DNA of 21,245 nucleotides from a virus. Positions 5,892-17,200 of this stretch are shown piece by piece (within the stretch, counting starts at the first letter, position 1; each line of letters starts with the position of its first letter). A model generated the notes under the pieces. The model was not told where the DNA came from, ran no database searches, and saw only the letters and a program-made list of their open reading frames with translations. The stretch spans positions 1 to 21,245 of the IMG/VR virus record IMGVR_UViG_3300037847_000173; one strand, 5' to 3'. Both the position numbers and the translations under genes were made by a program.

Positions 5892-6197
5892 ATGAAGTCT
5901 CTTGTAGCAGCGGCAGTTTTGTTTCTAATACCAACTTTTAGTCAAGCACAGCAAATTAGCAACCTGTGCTTTCCAGTTGGCTCAATTTCAACTCAAGCTG
6001 TAAAACATGGAGAGTATCCTGCTTTTTCATTTAGAGATAGTCAATACAGGGTTACTTTTACTCTGTACATAAATCCAAAAACTGGGTCTTACACAATGAT
6101 GGGTGTAGCCGATATAAATCCAGAAGTAGAATGTGTAGCGTCCATGGGTACAGATTTTAAACCCATTATAAATAAACCTAAAGGAATTCCTCTGTGA
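5892..6197 (+). CDS. Small secreted (periplasmic) protein of unknown function
   Basis: 101 residues. The N-terminus is a classic signal peptide: Lys2, a hydrophobic core to residue 16, and an SQA cleavage site before Gln20. The mature part is about 82 residues, likely beta-rich (YRVTFTLYINPKTGSYTMMGVADI), with two cysteines (26 and 81) that could form one disulfide in the periplasm. The ATG immediately follows the stop of the oxygenase gene and the TGA overlaps the GTG of the next gene, so it is firmly part of the same transcript. I do not recognise the family. A secreted product inside a head-to-tail gene block is unexpected. Confidence 0.7.
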   Translation: MKSLVAAAVLFLIPTFSQAQQISNLCFPVGSISTQAVKHGEYPAFSFRDSQYRVTFTLYINPKTGSYTMMGVADINPEVECVASMGTDFKPIINKPKGIPL

Positions 6198-6556: not shown

Positions 6557-7927
6557 ATGAATTATGTAGAACTAATTAACGCTGTGCTTTTCGATCTTAA
6601 TGAAACCACGATTGCAGAGACTGCTGCTGGTCTGTCTGGAACACGAGGCGTGCAGACGACAGTTAAAAAGGACATAAACAGAGCTATACGAGACATTGAG
6701 GCTGAATACATGCAATGGCCTTGGAACTTTCTTAGCGCACGTTACACACTGTTTGGTGGCCGAGGTAAGTACACGTACCCCATAAAGGTAGAGGTGTCTA
6801 GCGTTGGTGGGGGCTTTACTCCTAATGAAATGATCACAGGTGGCACCTCATCTGCAAAGGGTATTCTGCGTAGGGTGCCACCTCACGGCGGTCACGCTGA
6901 TGAACAATTTATGCTCATTGAGCCGATTGAAGGCACGTTTCAATCTTCAGAAACTCTTACAGGTGTATCCTCCACGTTTACAGCTACGTCAGGAGACATA
7001 ACATTCTGCACTGATGTAGACTACGACACATTCTTTTTACGCCCACAGAACCTGATTAGGCAGGGCGACTTTGACAAGACGTTTACTCTAGGCTCGTACT
7101 GGGATAGCAGAAGCTCTGACCCTGCAGGAACAAGCACCTCTGGCACCCCCGCACTAAGTAACTCTGTGAGCGGCAGAACTTATGCGGCGGGTGTTTTGCG
7201 TTTGAACGCTGGTTGTGTAGATCAAGCACTGCCCACTGTTGAAAACAGAGTGTATAGAGTTACTGCAAGGATTGCATCTGGCACTATCTCATCAACGTCA
7301 GAAACACTGAACGTATTTGCAGGTTCTAGCAGTGACAAGGACTCTGACCTATCAACTACGTTTACCATAGACAATGTTGGTAATGGTGAAATTAAGACGG
7401 CTACATTTACTGCATCAACGCAGCAGACTTTTATTAGCCTTAGTAATACTGCATCAACAAACTTAGACATAGACTTCGTTGAGGTGTTTGAGGACGATGC
7501 GTCTGCAAAAACTCTAGAGTACAAATCAATTGATGAATACCATGAAGGTAGAGGTCGCTACCATACGTCATACAGAGAGAACGAGTTCTTAGCTCTTAAC
7601 TCACCCGATGATGGGTTCACCACTCCTCAATGCGTGTACCGTGTCAAAAACGACAATGCCTTTGGTATCACACCCATACCTGAAAATACACAATATGATG
7701 TTGAGTTTGACTTTTATGACTCGTCCCCAGAACTAAGTGTATTTACTGACACACCAAAGATACCAACACGTTATCATGACGTAATTGTAGCGCGTGTAAA
7801 ATACTTTGTTCACATACTGCGTGGTAACGACCAAGCTGCACAGTTTGCATTCCGCGACTATGAAAATGGTGTGCGGAGAATGCGTACTGAGCTAACGAAC
7901 CAAAAAGACTACATGAGAGCCGTTTAA
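6557..7927 (+). CDS. Head-tail adaptor / tail tubular protein A-like, with inserted beta domains
   Basis: 456 residues. The core is split. Residues 1-75 are helical then beta (INRAIRDIEAEYMQWPWNFLSARYTL) and 316-456 return to the same theme (KSIDEYHEGRGRYHTSYRENEFLALN, then a helical end RYHDVIVARVKYFVHILRG), the organisation of T7 gp11-like adaptors. Between them sit two apparent insertions. One at 80-155 holds two similar half-units (NEMITGGTSSAKG and SETLTGVSSTFTA, each after a Phe). The other at 166-313 begins NLIRQGDF and ends LDIDFVEVF, the frame of a carbohydrate-binding jelly-roll. The usual T7 adaptor is about 200 residues; removing both insertions leaves about 230. The next gene is the nozzle-like protein and overlaps by one base (TAATG). 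The adaptor call is moderately firm; the insertion folds are inference. Confidence 0.72.
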   Translation: MNYVELINAVLFDLNETTIAETAAGLSGTRGVQTTVKKDINRAIRDIEAEYMQWPWNFLSARYTLFGGRGKYTYPIKVEVSSVGGGFTPNEMITGGTSSAKGILRRVPPHGGHADEQFMLIEPIEGTFQSSETLTGVSSTFTATSGDITFCTDVDYDTFFLRPQNLIRQGDFDKTFTLGSYWDSRSSDPAGTSTSGTPALSNSVSGRTYAAGVLRLNAGCVDQALPTVENRVYRVTARIASGTISSTSETLNVFAGSSSDKDSDLSTTFTIDNVGNGEIKTATFTASTQQTFISLSNTASTNLDIDFVEVFEDDASAKTLEYKSIDEYHEGRGRYHTSYRENEFLALNSPDDGFTTPQCVYRVKNDNAFGITPIPENTQYDVEFDFYDSSPELSVFTDTPKIPTRYHDVIVARVKYFVHILRGNDQAAQFAFRDYENGVRRMRTELTNQKDYMRAV

Positions 7928-9456
7928 TGCCGACACAAGCGTTTCCTGTAAACTGCGATGGTGGACTAGTCCTCGACAAAAGTGTGTTTGTTGCAAAACC
8001 CGGAGAGGCTATCACTCTGCAAAACTATGAGCCATCTGTCACAGGGGGCTATTCTAAAATATTGGGCTTTACTAAGTTTGACAGCAATCAGGTGTCAGGG
8101 TCTGGTGGTATACTTGGTGTAGCTATATTTCAAGACAAGGTTGTTGCAGCGCGAGGTGCAAATGTTGCAACAAGCACAGGCTCTGGGTGGACAAACTTTG
8201 TAACTAACCGCACTAGCGCGGGGCGGTATACCTTTACAGTATATAACTGGACAGGCACCGAAAAGATTGCGATGGCCGATGGAGTCAACGATGCGGCCAT
8301 TTTTGATGGCAGCACATACACAGCATTAACTGGAGGTGCAGGTTCAGGTTCAGGCACAAAGCCCACAGCGCCTGAAGTTGTCATTGAGCATAAGAACCAC
8401 CTATTCTTTGCAGGAATGACAAACAACAGGCAGCTACTGCAGTTTAGTGCGCCATACGCTGAGAATGATTTTAGTGCCGCGTCAGGCGCAGGTCAGATAT
8501 CTATTGGTGACGAGATTGTTGGACTAGCTAGGTTTCGAGAAACTTTAGTTATATTTTGCAAAGACAGTATTTTTAGACTAGCAGGATCAAGTGTTTCCGA
8601 TTTTGTTCTCCAGCCTGTTACCAGAAATATCGGATGTCTGTCTAGATTTAGTATTCAAGAAATAGGCGGTGATCTTATTTATCTTGCGCCAGATGGACTA
8701 AGAACAGTTGCTGGTACTGAAAGAATTGGTGATACGGAACTAGGAACGATCTCTAAGCAAGTTCAGTCTAGATTAAATGAGCTTAGTGCTGCCCAGATAG
8801 CAAATATCTCTTCGCATGTTATTAGGAGAAAAAGCCAATATAGATTGTATTACCCTGCTAGCGGGGACTCAGAAGCAAATGCAGCAGGGCTTATGGCAGT
8901 TCTAAAACGAAGCACGGACACAGGTCAGATTGGGTGGGAGTACGCAGATTTAAAAGGTATAAAGCCTATGTCTGCCACGCATGGTGACATATCGGATGAA
9001 GAACTAGTTTTACACGGAGACTTTGATGGAGGTTATGTGTATCAACAAGAATCTGGTAGTACATTTGATAGCACTAACATTGCCTGTATTTACAGGACTA
9101 TCGATTACAACATGGGTGATGTAGGCATACGCAAGAACATGCAAAGAGTCGTTATAAACTACATCGGCACAGGCACAGTGTCCTCTGTAGATATGAACCT
9201 TGAATACGATTATGGAGACATACTATTACCAAGCCCTGCCCTGTATGACCTGCTAGACCCCTCTGGGTCAGCGTTTTATGGCAGTGCTATTATGGGCACA
9301 GCAGAGTACGATGCTGCAGTATATACGCCTCTTTACAGGCAATCTGTAGAGGGTTCAGGATTTGCAATAGCATTAAAATTTACAGATACAAGCACTAACC
9401 CTACGTATACGCTAAAAGGGTTTTCGCTAGAATTTACACCGGGAGGTAGAATGTAA
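7927..9456 (+). CDS. Tail nozzle / stabilisation protein (tail tubular protein B-like)
   Basis: 509 residues, beta-rich and propeller-like: repeated short blocks such as GGILGVAIFQDKVVAARG, NWTGTEKIAMADGVNDAAIFDG, HKNHLFFAG, EIVGLARFRETLVIFCKDSIFRLAG and IGGDLIYLAPDGLRTVAG, each an inner strand plus turn. This is the pattern of the nozzle or stabilisation proteins that follow the adaptor in T7- and P22-like tails. The C-terminal 150 residues (NMQRVVINYIGTGTVSSVDMNLEYDYGD) are a further beta domain. It overlaps the adaptor stop (TAATG) and its own TAA overlaps the fibre ATG, indicating translational coupling through the tail block. Length is somewhat below T7 gp12 (about 800 residues) but normal for the smaller marine and P22-type versions. 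Confidence 0.7.
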   Translation: MPTQAFPVNCDGGLVLDKSVFVAKPGEAITLQNYEPSVTGGYSKILGFTKFDSNQVSGSGGILGVAIFQDKVVAARGANVATSTGSGWTNFVTNRTSAGRYTFTVYNWTGTEKIAMADGVNDAAIFDGSTYTALTGGAGSGSGTKPTAPEVVIEHKNHLFFAGMTNNRQLLQFSAPYAENDFSAASGAGQISIGDEIVGLARFRETLVIFCKDSIFRLAGSSVSDFVLQPVTRNIGCLSRFSIQEIGGDLIYLAPDGLRTVAGTERIGDTELGTISKQVQSRLNELSAAQIANISSHVIRRKSQYRLYYPASGDSEANAAGLMAVLKRSTDTGQIGWEYADLKGIKPMSATHGDISDEELVLHGDFDGGYVYQQESGSTFDSTNIACIYRTIDYNMGDVGIRKNMQRVVINYIGTGTVSSVDMNLEYDYGDILLPSPALYDLLDPSGSAFYGSAIMGTAEYDAAVYTPLYRQSVEGSGFAIALKFTDTSTNPTYTLKGFSLEFTPGGRM

Positions 9457-13951: not shown

Positions 13952-14527
13952 ATGTGGAAATATAATAGCAGAACAATTAGAACAGGTAAATCATGGACCG
14001 ATGATAACGGTGTGCAGCATCCTGCTAATTGGCACATTTGGTCGCCATCAGATAAAGCTGCTGCTGGCCTTACTGAGGTTACACCAGAAACACCGCCAGA
14101 CTCGCGTCTCTATACTTGGGGCTACCAAGCTGACGGTGTAACAATCTCTAAAACAGCTAAAAATCTTAATGATGTAAATGAAGTAGACGGAGATGGTGAT
14201 CCTATTCTAGACGATGATGGCAATCAGCTTGTTACTCGCGGCGTTAAGTGGAATCTTAAACAAGAAGTAAAAACCCAGCAAGGTTCTTTGCTTGCTCAGA
14301 CTGATTGGGCGGTTGTCAGAAAAGCAGATAAAGGAACAGCGATACCATCAAATATCCAAACCTACCGAGATGCGATCCGCACCAAAGCTACAGAGATGGA
14401 AACAGCCATTGATAATGCAGCAAATACGGATGCAGTTGCAGCCCTGTTTGTAACATACACAACTAATGAAGATGGTAGTGTAACTAAGTCCGGTATTCTT
14501 TACGATTGGCCTGAATTAGAGGATTAG
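13952..14527 (+). CDS. Tail fibre assembly chaperone-like protein
   Basis: 191 residues. The N-terminal half (MWKYNSRTIRTGKSWTDDNG, then HPANWHIWS) is a small beta region. The C-terminal half carries the pattern seen in tail-fibre assembly and related proteins: LLAQTDWAVVRKADKGTAIP, then a helix NIQTYRDAIRTKATEMETAI that recalls the usual LL-TDW...YR-LR arrangement. An AGGAG site (13938-13942) precedes the ATG. It directly follows the adhesin, where such chaperones are typically encoded. In many phages the TDW segment is part of a fibre tip or chaperone, so it may remain on the particle. Confidence is moderate because only the short TDW/YR motif is diagnostic. Confidence 0.65.
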   Translation: MWKYNSRTIRTGKSWTDDNGVQHPANWHIWSPSDKAAAGLTEVTPETPPDSRLYTWGYQADGVTISKTAKNLNDVNEVDGDGDPILDDDGNQLVTRGVKWNLKQEVKTQQGSLLAQTDWAVVRKADKGTAIPSNIQTYRDAIRTKATEMETAIDNAANTDAVAALFVTYTTNEDGSVTKSGILYDWPELED

Positions 14528-14529
14528 AC

Positions 14530-15045
14530 GTGATCATTAGAGGTTTACTATTATTATTTGCTTTGTCTGTACTTATTCCTACCACAGTTTTAGCAGAGAC
14601 TAATACGGTATCTTCTACAGTAGTTACAGACAAAACTCCTCCTACAGCCTCTGCACCGTCTGTAGTAATTAATAATACAGACGTATGTAAAAGCGCCAAG
14701 AGTGCGGCGGTGCAGACACAGATATTTGGTTTTGCGGGTGGCGTTACAGTTACAGATGAAACCTGTGAGCTACTTAAATTAAGCCGCTCTCTGTACGGCA
14801 TGGGCATGAAGGTAGCAGGGGTTAGCTTACTCTGTACAGACCATAGAGTATTTGATGCTATGTGGATGGCGGGTACGCCCTGCCCGTACAAAGGTAAGAT
14901 AGGAAATGAGGCAAGGGTAGCATGGGAGGCTAATCCAAAGGACGCACCAGAAGGGAACACTGTGCTGGTTGTGAAGGAGGAGCATAGCCACTCAGAACGA
15001 GACGAAAAGTACGAGTTCCCGGATGAGTATGAATTTTCTGACTAA
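14530..15045 (+). CDS. Secreted four-cysteine protein, unknown function
   Basis: 171 residues, starting at GTG (14530), two bases after the upstream stop, with GAGGA about 6 bases before it. Residues 1-22 are a signal peptide (Arg4, hydrophobic core, VLA cleavage before Glu23). Residues 23-50 are a Thr/Ser/Pro linker. The mature domain has four cysteines (53, 79, 102, 118) with GFAGGVTVTDETCELLKLSR and CTDHRVFDAMWMAGTPCPYKG; even cysteine number in a periplasmic protein suggests two disulfides. The tail is charged (Glu/Lys/Asp/His). It overlaps the next gene by 23 bases, so the pair is translationally linked. I associate the domain with marine phage genomes but know of no assigned activity. 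The start relies on the signal peptide fit. Confidence 0.7.
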   Translation: MIIRGLLLLFALSVLIPTTVLAETNTVSSTVVTDKTPPTASAPSVVINNTDVCKSAKSAAVQTQIFGFAGGVTVTDETCELLKLSRSLYGMGMKVAGVSLLCTDHRVFDAMWMAGTPCPYKGKIGNEARVAWEANPKDAPEGNTVLVVKEEHSHSERDEKYEFPDEYEFSD

Positions 15046-16285
15046 GTGGTTTGCTTTTGTCTGCGTCATTCTGCTTTCGTTTAGCTCTGTAGCAGAGGAA
15101 ACAGAGATTGTAACCGGGCAAGAGACTAGCCCAAACTACATACCTGAGATGAGTGAGTTTACCAGATCAGGCGGCACTAACACAGGTGGTGGCAGGGGAT
15201 GCGCTTCAGGAAACTTCTGCACTGCAGGCACACAGGGGCCGGGAGGGACGTATACAAGCACATTTGATTTAGAAGATAACATGACCCTAGATCAGATTAA
15301 TCGTGGTTTTGCTATGGACTACGGTGTAGACGTTGAGTCTCACCCAAGTAACTCTGTACTATCTTCATGTGTCGGCGGTAACGTCATGCAGAACAGGGAC
15401 TGTCGAGACATATTTAATCTTACAGTTACGCTACTAGATGTAAACAATGTAGTGCATAAATTTGAACATGAGGTTGAGTTAGACTTTACAGGGGAACGCT
15501 CTTTTGCTTTTTCTCAAACTATACCAGAAAACAACTTTACAGGACTAAAGGGGGAGTTTGAGTTATTCGGCATAGATGCCGGGTTTTCGAGTGGGTTTTT
15601 CGGCCCTCGATTTGACAACCCCTTCCTCACTACGACTTTCGATCTCGTTACGATTTTAGAGACAGAGGTGCTTAGTATCATTGATTTGCAGGAGCAAGTT
15701 GAGGTTGTAGATATACAGGAGATAAGTGTAGAGATTGAGCCTGCAGCACCGGAAGAAATAGAAGTAGCCACAGAGATAGTGGTTGAAGAGATTGAGACTG
15801 TAGAGTTGGAGATAGAGGTGCAGCAGCCTGTAGAACCAGAGGCTGCACAAGAGGAGATGGAAGTTAGCGCAGAGGTTGAAGAAGAAATACAAGAAGCGGA
15901 GGTAGCAGAGCCGGAACCCGCCACTGAAACTGCTAGCACTGATGAGCCAGAGGAACAACAGGAGGAGCAGTCTGAACCCGCCCAGAAGAAAGTCGTTGCT
16001 CAAAAGGTCAAAGAAAAAGTTGCCAAGAAGATCATGGGCAAGATGAATGACAAGAGCAAGTATGACTCGACTAATCAGGTGAGGACATTAGCCGTCATGG
16101 GCGTTCTTGGTAACAGCCGTAGCTTTTTTAGCGCACAGGCTACACTGCAGGACACTCCCGGCTTCTTTAGCGGGGCTACCATACCAGATGGCAGCATACC
16201 TACAAACAATACAGCGCAGTACCTGATGTTTGGTGGCAGCAATCAGGCACACTCTCAGATGATGGAGGACCAATGGCAGAGGTAG
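15023..16285 (+). CDS. Secreted acidic Val/Glu-rich protein with conserved C-terminal domain
   Basis: 420 residues, with a second ATG at 15029 that is an equally possible start. Residues 1-24 form a signal peptide (KWFAFVCVILLSFSSVA). Residues 25-200 contain four cysteines (about 60, 66, 116, 125) and a mixed beta region. Residues 210-315 are an extreme low-complexity stretch of Glu, Val, Ile, Ala and Pro. Residues 318-340 are basic (KKVVAQKVKEKVAKKIMGKM). The last 80 residues are a compact domain with VMGVLGNSRSFF, LQDTPGFFSG and NNTAQYLMFGGSNQAH. The order, secreted head, long acidic Pro/Glu linker and folded end, recalls periplasm-spanning proteins such as TonB, though there is no sequence match I can claim. 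It overlaps both neighbours, so it is cotranscribed with them. Confidence 0.72.
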   Translation: MSMNFLTKWFAFVCVILLSFSSVAEETEIVTGQETSPNYIPEMSEFTRSGGTNTGGGRGCASGNFCTAGTQGPGGTYTSTFDLEDNMTLDQINRGFAMDYGVDVESHPSNSVLSSCVGGNVMQNRDCRDIFNLTVTLLDVNNVVHKFEHEVELDFTGERSFAFSQTIPENNFTGLKGEFELFGIDAGFSSGFFGPRFDNPFLTTTFDLVTILETEVLSIIDLQEQVEVVDIQEISVEIEPAAPEEIEVATEIVVEEIETVELEIEVQQPVEPEAAQEEMEVSAEVEEEIQEAEVAEPEPATETASTDEPEEQQEEQSEPAQKKVVAQKVKEKVAKKIMGKMNDKSKYDSTNQVRTLAVMGVLGNSRSFFSAQATLQDTPGFFSGATIPDGSIPTNNTAQYLMFGGSNQAHSQMMEDQWQR

Positions 16286-16812
16286 AAGTTGGTGGAGTAA
16301 AGTTTAAGGGCGGCAAGATGATGGTTTTGCTTACTCTGCTGTCTACCACAGGTGGTGCTTTGTGGGCTGGTTTTGAGTTTTACAAAGACTACATGGACAT
16401 GCGCGAAAAGATACAGGAATACTCTGCACCAGATTTATCTGGCTTCGATAAGAAGTTAGCTGTGCTAAGACAAGACATGGATAATCTCAAAGAGCTAGAG
16501 AAGATTATAAAACAGTCAGCCTCAGATGCTAGAGATTATGCAAGGGACATAAAGAACGATTTAAAAGACGAGATTGTACGAACAGAAAAATTAGTCGAGG
16601 GGGTAGATCGTAGAACTAAGACTATACAAGATGAAGTTCGTAGCATGATAGATAAAGAGAATGATCGTAACAGTACCCTGCGAGATAGAATAAACTCTCG
16701 CATGGATAGTTTAGATGATTCTCTATCTAGTAAGATGAAAGCATTGCAGGAAGAAACAAACGCTAAAATTAAAAAAGCATTAGACAATCCTCTTTCTAAT
16801 ATGCGGAAATAA
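16273..16812 (+). CDS. Membrane-anchored coiled-coil protein
   Basis: 179 residues. Residues 15-36 (MMVLLTLLSTTGGALWAGFEFY) form one transmembrane helix near the N-terminus. Residues 38-175 are almost continuous charged helix (heptads of Leu/Ile/Met with Lys, Asp, Glu, Arg), a long coiled coil of perhaps 20 nm. GGAGG at 16264-16268 precedes the ATG, which lies inside the end of the previous gene (13-base overlap). The topology suits an inner-membrane protein reaching across the periplasm, for example an i-spanin-like role, or a membrane tether. The typical spanin pair (a lipoprotein in a shifted frame) was not found, so that is only a suggestion. A tail-associated coiled coil is less likely because of the membrane helix. 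Confidence 0.65.
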   Translation: MAEVEVGGVKFKGGKMMVLLTLLSTTGGALWAGFEFYKDYMDMREKIQEYSAPDLSGFDKKLAVLRQDMDNLKELEKIIKQSASDARDYARDIKNDLKDEIVRTEKLVEGVDRRTKTIQDEVRSMIDKENDRNSTLRDRINSRMDSLDDSLSSKMKALQEETNAKIKKALDNPLSNMRK

Positions 16813-16813
16813 C

Positions 16814-16842
16814 TTGACTTTTTCTTTCAAATAGGGTATAAT
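16814..16842 (+). promoter_or_regulatory. Near-consensus sigma70-type promoter
   Basis: TTGACT at 16814-16819 (5 of 6 with the consensus) and TATAAT at 16837-16842 (6 of 6) are separated by exactly 17 bases. It lies in the 33-base gap between the coiled-coil and holin-like genes. The predicted transcript start (about 16849) falls inside the coding sequence that starts at 16846, so RNA made from it would lack that start codon. It would then mainly serve the 55-aa and internal virion genes downstream. Confidence 0.72.
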
Positions 16843-16845
16843 ACT

Positions 16846-17043
16846 ATGGACCTAAAAACACCTGAACAATTAAAAAACGCTACAGATACTGTAATAGCTA
16901 CTAGCTTAGTATCTACGCCGCTTTGGTTGCAATGGGTGGAGCAGGGCCTTCAACTATTTATGTTAGTTGGTGGCTCTGTGCTTTTAGCCTTTAGGCTCTG
17001 GGCCATGATTAAAGAAAGGAAAAGCAAGCGAGATGGAACTTAA
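16846..17043 (+). CDS. Holin-like small membrane protein
   Basis: 65 residues. Residues 32-55 form a clear membrane helix (QGLQLFMLVGGSVLLAFRLWAMI), preceded by an aromatic, amphipathic stretch (STPLWLQWV) and followed by a strongly basic tail (KERKSKRDG). This is the shape of a small phage holin: short, one or two helices, positive C-terminus. ATG 16846 is the only plausible start in frame (a TAA lies at 16810). The AGGG at 16833-16836, nine bases before it, can serve as ribosome binding site but overlaps the promoter. The next gene overlaps it by 11 bases. Alternative: a small virion membrane-facing protein. No endolysin gene is adjacent; the only muralytic domain seen is far upstream at 1483-2790. 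Confidence 0.6.
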   Translation: MDLKTPEQLKNATDTVIATSLVSTPLWLQWVEQGLQLFMLVGGSVLLAFRLWAMIKERKSKRDGT

Positions 17044-17200
17044 TATTACAGAAAATCTAATGAAGGTGCTGGTACGTCAGCGTGACGTTGCAATGACTAA
17101 GTGTGCAGAGTTAGAAGCGAAACTGGTTGCTGTTAGTCAGAAGCTAGCTGAGTACGAAAATAAAGAACAGGCCGAGGATTTGTTCGCAAACAAGGAATAA
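17033..17200 (+). CDS. Small coiled-coil protein (55 aa)
   Basis: A short gene: MELNITENLM followed by a continuous charged helix ending AEDLFANKE, 55 codons plus TAA at 17198-17200. It has no membrane helix. Leu, Val and Ala positions repeat in heptad-like spacing with Cys24. It overlaps the holin-like gene end by 11 bases and ends 3 bases before the next ATG, so it fits the tight coding layout and fills the only gap. A purine-rich GAAAGGAAAA lies upstream. It might pair with the preceding membrane protein as a regulator, but that is only suggested by position. Being short, its reality depends on spacing and overlap. Confidence 0.6.
   Translation: MELNITENLMKVLVRQRDVAMTKCAELEAKLVAVSQKLAEYENKEQAEDLFANKE

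Follow-up and report, generated by a model that had tools for sequence, protein, structure and literature searches.

An accessory, horizontally exchanged three-gene envelope cassette in marine phages, with a possible role in tuning lysis

The window analysed here, a 21,245-base phage fragment from IMG/VR, encodes a major capsid protein that is 55% identical to its counterpart in pelagiphage HTVC033P and ~42% identical to that of HMO-2011. Downstream of a tail-fibre-assembly-like gene (13952-14527, plus strand; phrog_4912, 1.1e-5), five open reading frames follow one another, all on the plus strand. Gene A (14530-15045) starts with GTG and encodes 171 aa with a signal-peptide-like N-terminus and a core containing four invariant cysteines; gene B (15023-16285, 420 aa) combines a signal-peptide-like N-terminus with a predicted beta-sandwich, an acidic disordered linker and a helical C-terminus; gene C (16273-16812, 179 aa) has a hydrophobic stretch at residues 16-34, a charged, coiled-coil-like region and an NPL end; gene D (16846-17043, 65 aa) has a single hydrophobic stretch and a basic tail; and gene E (17033-17200) encodes a coiled-coil-like protein of 55 aa. 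The original prediction took the five as one envelope cluster, possibly a lysis or cell-surface system. Its coordinates are reproduced here, with overlaps of 23 (A/B), 13 (B/C) and 11 bases (D/E) and a sole gap of 33 bases between C and D, and dN/dS values against relatives of 0.05-0.14, a sign of purifying selection in all five, argue that A to E are protein genes. Inspection of the N-termini of A and B agrees with its two signal-peptide proteins, and its failure to recognise a named spanin, antiholin or endolysin was repeated in the libraries we searched: apart from weak coiled-coil similarities, A, B and C had no match there among known families of spanins, holins, endolysins, curli or defence proteins. 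A DNA search of the phage collection returned no match. Elsewhere in the window, a 101 aa signal-peptide-like protein (5892-6197) is encoded beside a 2OG-Fe(II) oxygenase gene.

The first three of these genes travel together. Among the 61 distinct loci in which A and C are both complete, every one has A, a long reading frame and C in a single order on one strand, and in 50 of them a profile identifies the intervening frame as B. Across 46 loci, the pairwise identities are correlated among A, B and C (Mantel r 0.78-0.87). The boundaries of the unit can be read from three phages with other tail fibres and other neighbours (L083, L087 and L088), with which the window has DNA identity of 77-79% across 14593-16815 (plus strand) only: the shared DNA begins 63 bases inside A and stops at C, with no DNA match at D, E, F or upstream, and in L087 and L088 there is an insertion near the B/C junction. 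The trio, a cassette that moves and is kept or lost as a unit, occurs in dozens of ocean phages, most of them uncultured. One lineage has a nuclease-like gene between B and C (L021:7595-7996, L026:7595-7999), and a different small reading frame lies there in L007.

D and E behave differently. Neither was detected outside the clade of the window, in which both belong to the backbone and stay in place when A-B-C leaves, so that the five-gene operon can be rejected as a functional unit: A-B-C and D-E are separate units, and the latter is present with or without the former. The co-conservation that would be expected of a five-gene cluster is therefore seen for A-B-C, which is not scattered in relatives, and not for D and E, which are. 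D is holin-like in its size and one hydrophobic segment, and it has no family match in the libraries. In sister phages whose D is 78-100% identical to that of the window, the A-B-C slot holds instead a single gene of 97-100 aa, here called X (L153:5670-5963 and its equivalents in L155, L156, L157, L158, L160, L166, L167 and L168). X consists of a hydrophobic, transmembrane-type N-terminus followed by a coiled coil, occurs in the window's clade only and reaches just 0.07-0.12 against PF10805. More distant relatives (L169-L172; D about 75% identical) have neither A-B-C nor X. The profile that detects A in 23 other records found none elsewhere in the seven X-type or neither-type records searched, several of which are fragments. 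As close relatives replace A-B-C with an unrelated gene, we consider it accessory rather than a basic lysis machine, and a slot with three states (A-B-C, X or none) is also how a superinfection-exclusion moron would be expected to behave.

On its upstream side the slot is bordered by the tail-fibre-assembly-like gene, outside the cassette, and on its 3' side by a near-consensus promoter-like element, TTGACT-17-TATAAT (16814-16842, plus strand), which is conserved in every one of the 17 listed loci, whether A-B-C or X lies upstream. Three bases separate the end of its -10 from the ATG of D, a spacing that suggests a promoter serving genes downstream rather than D itself. The neighbouring tail fibres come in two types. 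The pair formed by fib2 and its assembly gene accompanies A-B-C in the window and in L161/G001 and X in L153 and L156, while the pair formed by a glycine-rich and a PP-loop-like gene accompanies A-B-C in G002 and X in L157, L158, L160 and L166-L168. Tail-fibre type and cassette assort independently, and a role for A-B-C as a tail-fibre partner is rejected on these grounds.

The best-conserved feature of A is a set of four cysteines (C53, C79, C102 and C118) that are invariant in a 42-row alignment, which also shows motifs such as TPCP. The protein falls in phrog_20531 (2.6e-13), a PHROG with no assigned function. Its predicted model, with a mean pLDDT of 70, is confident for part of the chain only and finds no fold match in the PDB, nor does A match any solved chain, and for this reason we claim no fold for it. 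In a collection of 50,697 phage records only 11 carry A; six of these are phages of Pelagibacter, two are roseophages and the other three are uncultured. A single scan of genome collections recovered A exclusively from MAG or single-cell contigs of mixed, unrelated taxa, which we read as stray phage DNA, and a cellular origin is accordingly rejected.

B, for which 36 relatives were found in viral contigs, is largely confident in its predicted model over residues 28-211, which adopt a beta-sandwich of the CBM type. Over residues 28-206 the model aligns with the sugar-binding domain of Fbs1 (1umh) at Z 15.1 and with CBM16 at 11.4, and some homologues show weak, below-cut-off matches to CBM_4_9. 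The fold is thus like that of CBM16/CBM61-type modules and Fbs1, from which B differs in having only ~15% identity and in being fused to an acidic, low-confidence linker (about residues 213-327) and a helical end; a glycan-binding role is suggested by this fold resemblance. A diverged lineage has, in the place of B, a secreted-looking protein of 490-700 aa with CxxNPLYDPxCPGY-type repeats. The B counterparts of L078 (6003-7991), L046, L056, L069 and L071 have tandem CxxNPLYDPxCPGYAxAY-type repeats with two cysteines each. The BFVD fold matches of the sandwich include tail-fibre and receptor-binding proteins, and A-B-C lies beside tail fibres in the window, as might be expected if the three were virion parts (fibre-tip or neck proteins, for example) made next to the fibres. 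We regard this as very improbable given the signal-peptide-like N-termini of A and B, the hydrophobic anchor of C and the finding that elsewhere the trio adjoins endolysin, spanin or primase/RNR genes and not virion genes.

C has 512 relatives in viral contigs by the program's count. Its N-terminal segment is conserved and nearly all homologues end in NPL. The hydrophobic stretch is flanked by about 2.7 K/R residues before and 2.6 after, a charge distribution compatible with either topology. Matches of C in PADLOC to LeoB and ZorA reflect coiled-coil similarity to proteins that are large and unrelated, and a defence role drawn from them is rejected. Two C-like coiled-coil proteins are labelled 'lysozyme' in GenBank (CRP-207 gp73, L151:3292-3873; CRP-810 gp51, L112:7204-7626), and no lysozyme domain was found in either. 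As a small, one-TM protein encoded near lysis genes, C resembles the Mu releasin gp25 (DUF2730; PMC9239132). Releasin, however, has an N-out/C-in orientation, and no A- or B-like partners take part in its action on a SAR endolysin. The depositors of AP013540 annotated its C homologue as DUF2730, a match that was not reproduced here, and no C homologue matched PF10805 (DUF2730) at E up to 1.

The trio also has the general layout of the T4 holin T and antiholin RI (PMC11413866), in which a protein with an N-terminal TM and a possible periplasmic domain is paired with a small secreted partner. C could on this model be a T-type holin with a periplasmic domain, A an RI-like periplasmic antiholin and B a sensor. 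This seems unlikely, since C and A match no holin or antiholin family in Pfam or PHROGs (which would be compatible with a distant relation), A resembles no solved chain, B would be a third, glycan-binding-type protein absent from the T4 pair, and several records already have a 3-TM holin or an EF-hand/2-TM gene.

The latter gene, a separate holin candidate in the window's clade, forms part of a set that bears directly on whether A-B-C is needed for lysis. Each of five long clade records has the EF-hand/2-TM gene together with an i-spanin and an o-spanin (called with the phrog_739 and phrog_812 profiles) away from the slot, be it in the presence of A-B-C (G002, G003), of X (G016, G017) or of neither (G020). 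In G001 the set was not found, but that sequence ends soon after gene I. With a separate set in all five long records, A-B-C is not the outer-membrane disruption pair of this clade, and the existence of phages with neither A-B-C nor X indicates that lysis can proceed without it; the five-gene lysis machine of the original prediction does not survive these observations.

It is still worth asking whether A-B-C could be a spanin-like machine for disrupting the outer membrane, standing in for the two-component spanin or duplicating it. A chain from the inner membrane to an envelope glycan would be possible, and the two spanin profiles used found no clear match in any of the 11 named records that carry A. 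In the T7 order the holin and Rz/Rz1 lie between the tail fibre and TerL, and it is there that the trio sits in the T7-like AP013540. We nevertheless hold this reading to be improbable because the lipobox [LVI][ASTVI][GAS]C is absent from the N-termini of A and B, and because 7 of 23 records, one of the window's clade among them, also carry an i-spanin and o-spanin pair. Compared with two-component spanins of the lambda Rz/Rz1 type (PMC6139136), with which it shares the idea of spanning the envelope and to which it is often close on the genome, A-B-C has three proteins, a glycan-binding-type domain and no lipoprotein subunit, and genuine spanin pairs coexist with it in the same genomes; the likeness of C to an i-spanin, one TM followed by a coiled coil, is predicted from sequence.

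Proximity to lysis genes is seen in several unrelated lineages. An M15 endolysin lies directly upstream of A in G004 and G005, an i-spanin and o-spanin directly upstream of the trio in G006 and G007, and a 3-TM holin upstream of it in Mosig, while an Amidase_2 gene is near the trio in HTVC033P and an M15 gene in HTVC023P. Of 18 records in which a lysis gene was matched by profile, nine have such a gene no more than 3 kb from A, where random placement would give 2.9 (P 7e-4); the Fisher value over distances is 0.003. These estimates are generous, as they assume independent records and uniform gene placement. The linkage is statistical but incomplete: in HTVC115P (27 kb), CRP-810 (25 kb), HTVC202P, Baldr and AP013540, 10-27 kb lie between the trio and the closest lysis gene matched by profile, and in the window's clade the trio and the spanins are about 12.7 kb apart.

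Taken together, these observations describe A-B-C as an accessory set of envelope genes that marine phages exchange horizontally as a cassette, with D and E outside it. Envelope targeting is supported by the predicted export signals and membrane anchor, and for these three co-conserved genes, to judge by their sequence, the original prediction of an undescribed envelope-directed set holds. As to function, we lean, tentatively and at somewhat less than even confidence, towards an accessory periplasmic module that tunes lysis, a preference that follows from the location of A-B-C on the same strand as the window's late structural genes and from the linkage to lysis genes. A and B would be exported to the periplasm, where the sandwich of B might hold an envelope glycan, either peptidoglycan or an outer-membrane sugar, while its acidic linker and helical end would reach C, which would sit in the inner membrane and project its coiled coil into the periplasm; the third partner would be A, presumably stabilised by disulfides. 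Made late, along with the structural genes, such a complex would tie the inner membrane to the wall or the outer membrane and, acting in addition to holin, endolysin and spanins, would adjust the timing or the completeness of envelope failure.

The main rival, which we consider possible but doubtful, is a superinfection-exclusion or host-surface module whose periplasmic proteins occupy or alter the envelope and so block injection by other phages. Its appeal lies in the accessory behaviour of A-B-C, which is swapped between close relatives and common to unrelated backbones, and it would also suit envelope-directed proteins with a sugar-binding-type fold in B and a position bordering the tail-fibre region in the window. 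Yet the cassette is encoded with late structural genes, is linked to endolysin or spanin genes in several lineages and, like X, is independent of the neighbouring tail-fibre type; nor did the searched libraries yield an exclusion-protein match, the weak PADLOC hits of C being coiled-coil ones. It is tempting to speculate further that A-B-C represents a new three-component trans-envelope machine, composed of an inner-membrane coiled coil, a lectin-linker and a disulfide protein, that is passed as a unit between unrelated phages whose hosts are abundant marine bacteria, controls either envelope failure or co-infectors, and is interchangeable with a single small membrane coiled-coil protein of equal function. 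We rate this bolder proposal as rather unlikely.

Another envelope cluster shared across marine phage families is the CsgGF curli pore of pelagimyophages and Melnitz, for which a role in lysis timing has been proposed (PMC7029224, PMC9004378, PMC9599517). The A-B-C proteins are different, with searches of Pfam, PHROGs and NCBIfam detecting no CsgG or CsgF domain in any of the three, and in Mosig the trio adjoins primase/RNR; identity with the curli pore is rejected. The literature that we searched on pelagiphage lysis and curli systems covers other genes, although an earlier mention is possible as subscription journals were mostly outside the search, and the pelagiphage transcriptome was determined for HTVC027P (PMC12753301), a phage absent from the 11 records that carry A. 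SAR11 and roseobacter phages are among the ocean's commonest, and their lysis and exclusion genes are poorly known, holin and endolysin neighbours being mostly 'hypothetical'. The cassette recurs in dozens of contigs and in eight cultured phages (six of Pelagibacter, two of roseobacters), and the sister phages that have X in its slot offer a natural comparison. Were A-B-C to tune lysis, it would matter for burst size and latent period in the ocean, and were it to exclude other phages, for co-infection.

Two further genes of the window touch on cell-wall degradation. A 435 aa protein encoded near the capsid gene (1483-2790) contains a SleB-type cell wall hydrolase domain (PF07486, 8e-9) and is a candidate for a virion-associated enzyme or for the missing endolysin. 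The product of 7927-9456 has as its best PHROG phrog_5107, 'amidase', yet it matches virion structural and head-closure families too, and the 'amidase' label in HMO-2011 may be wrong.
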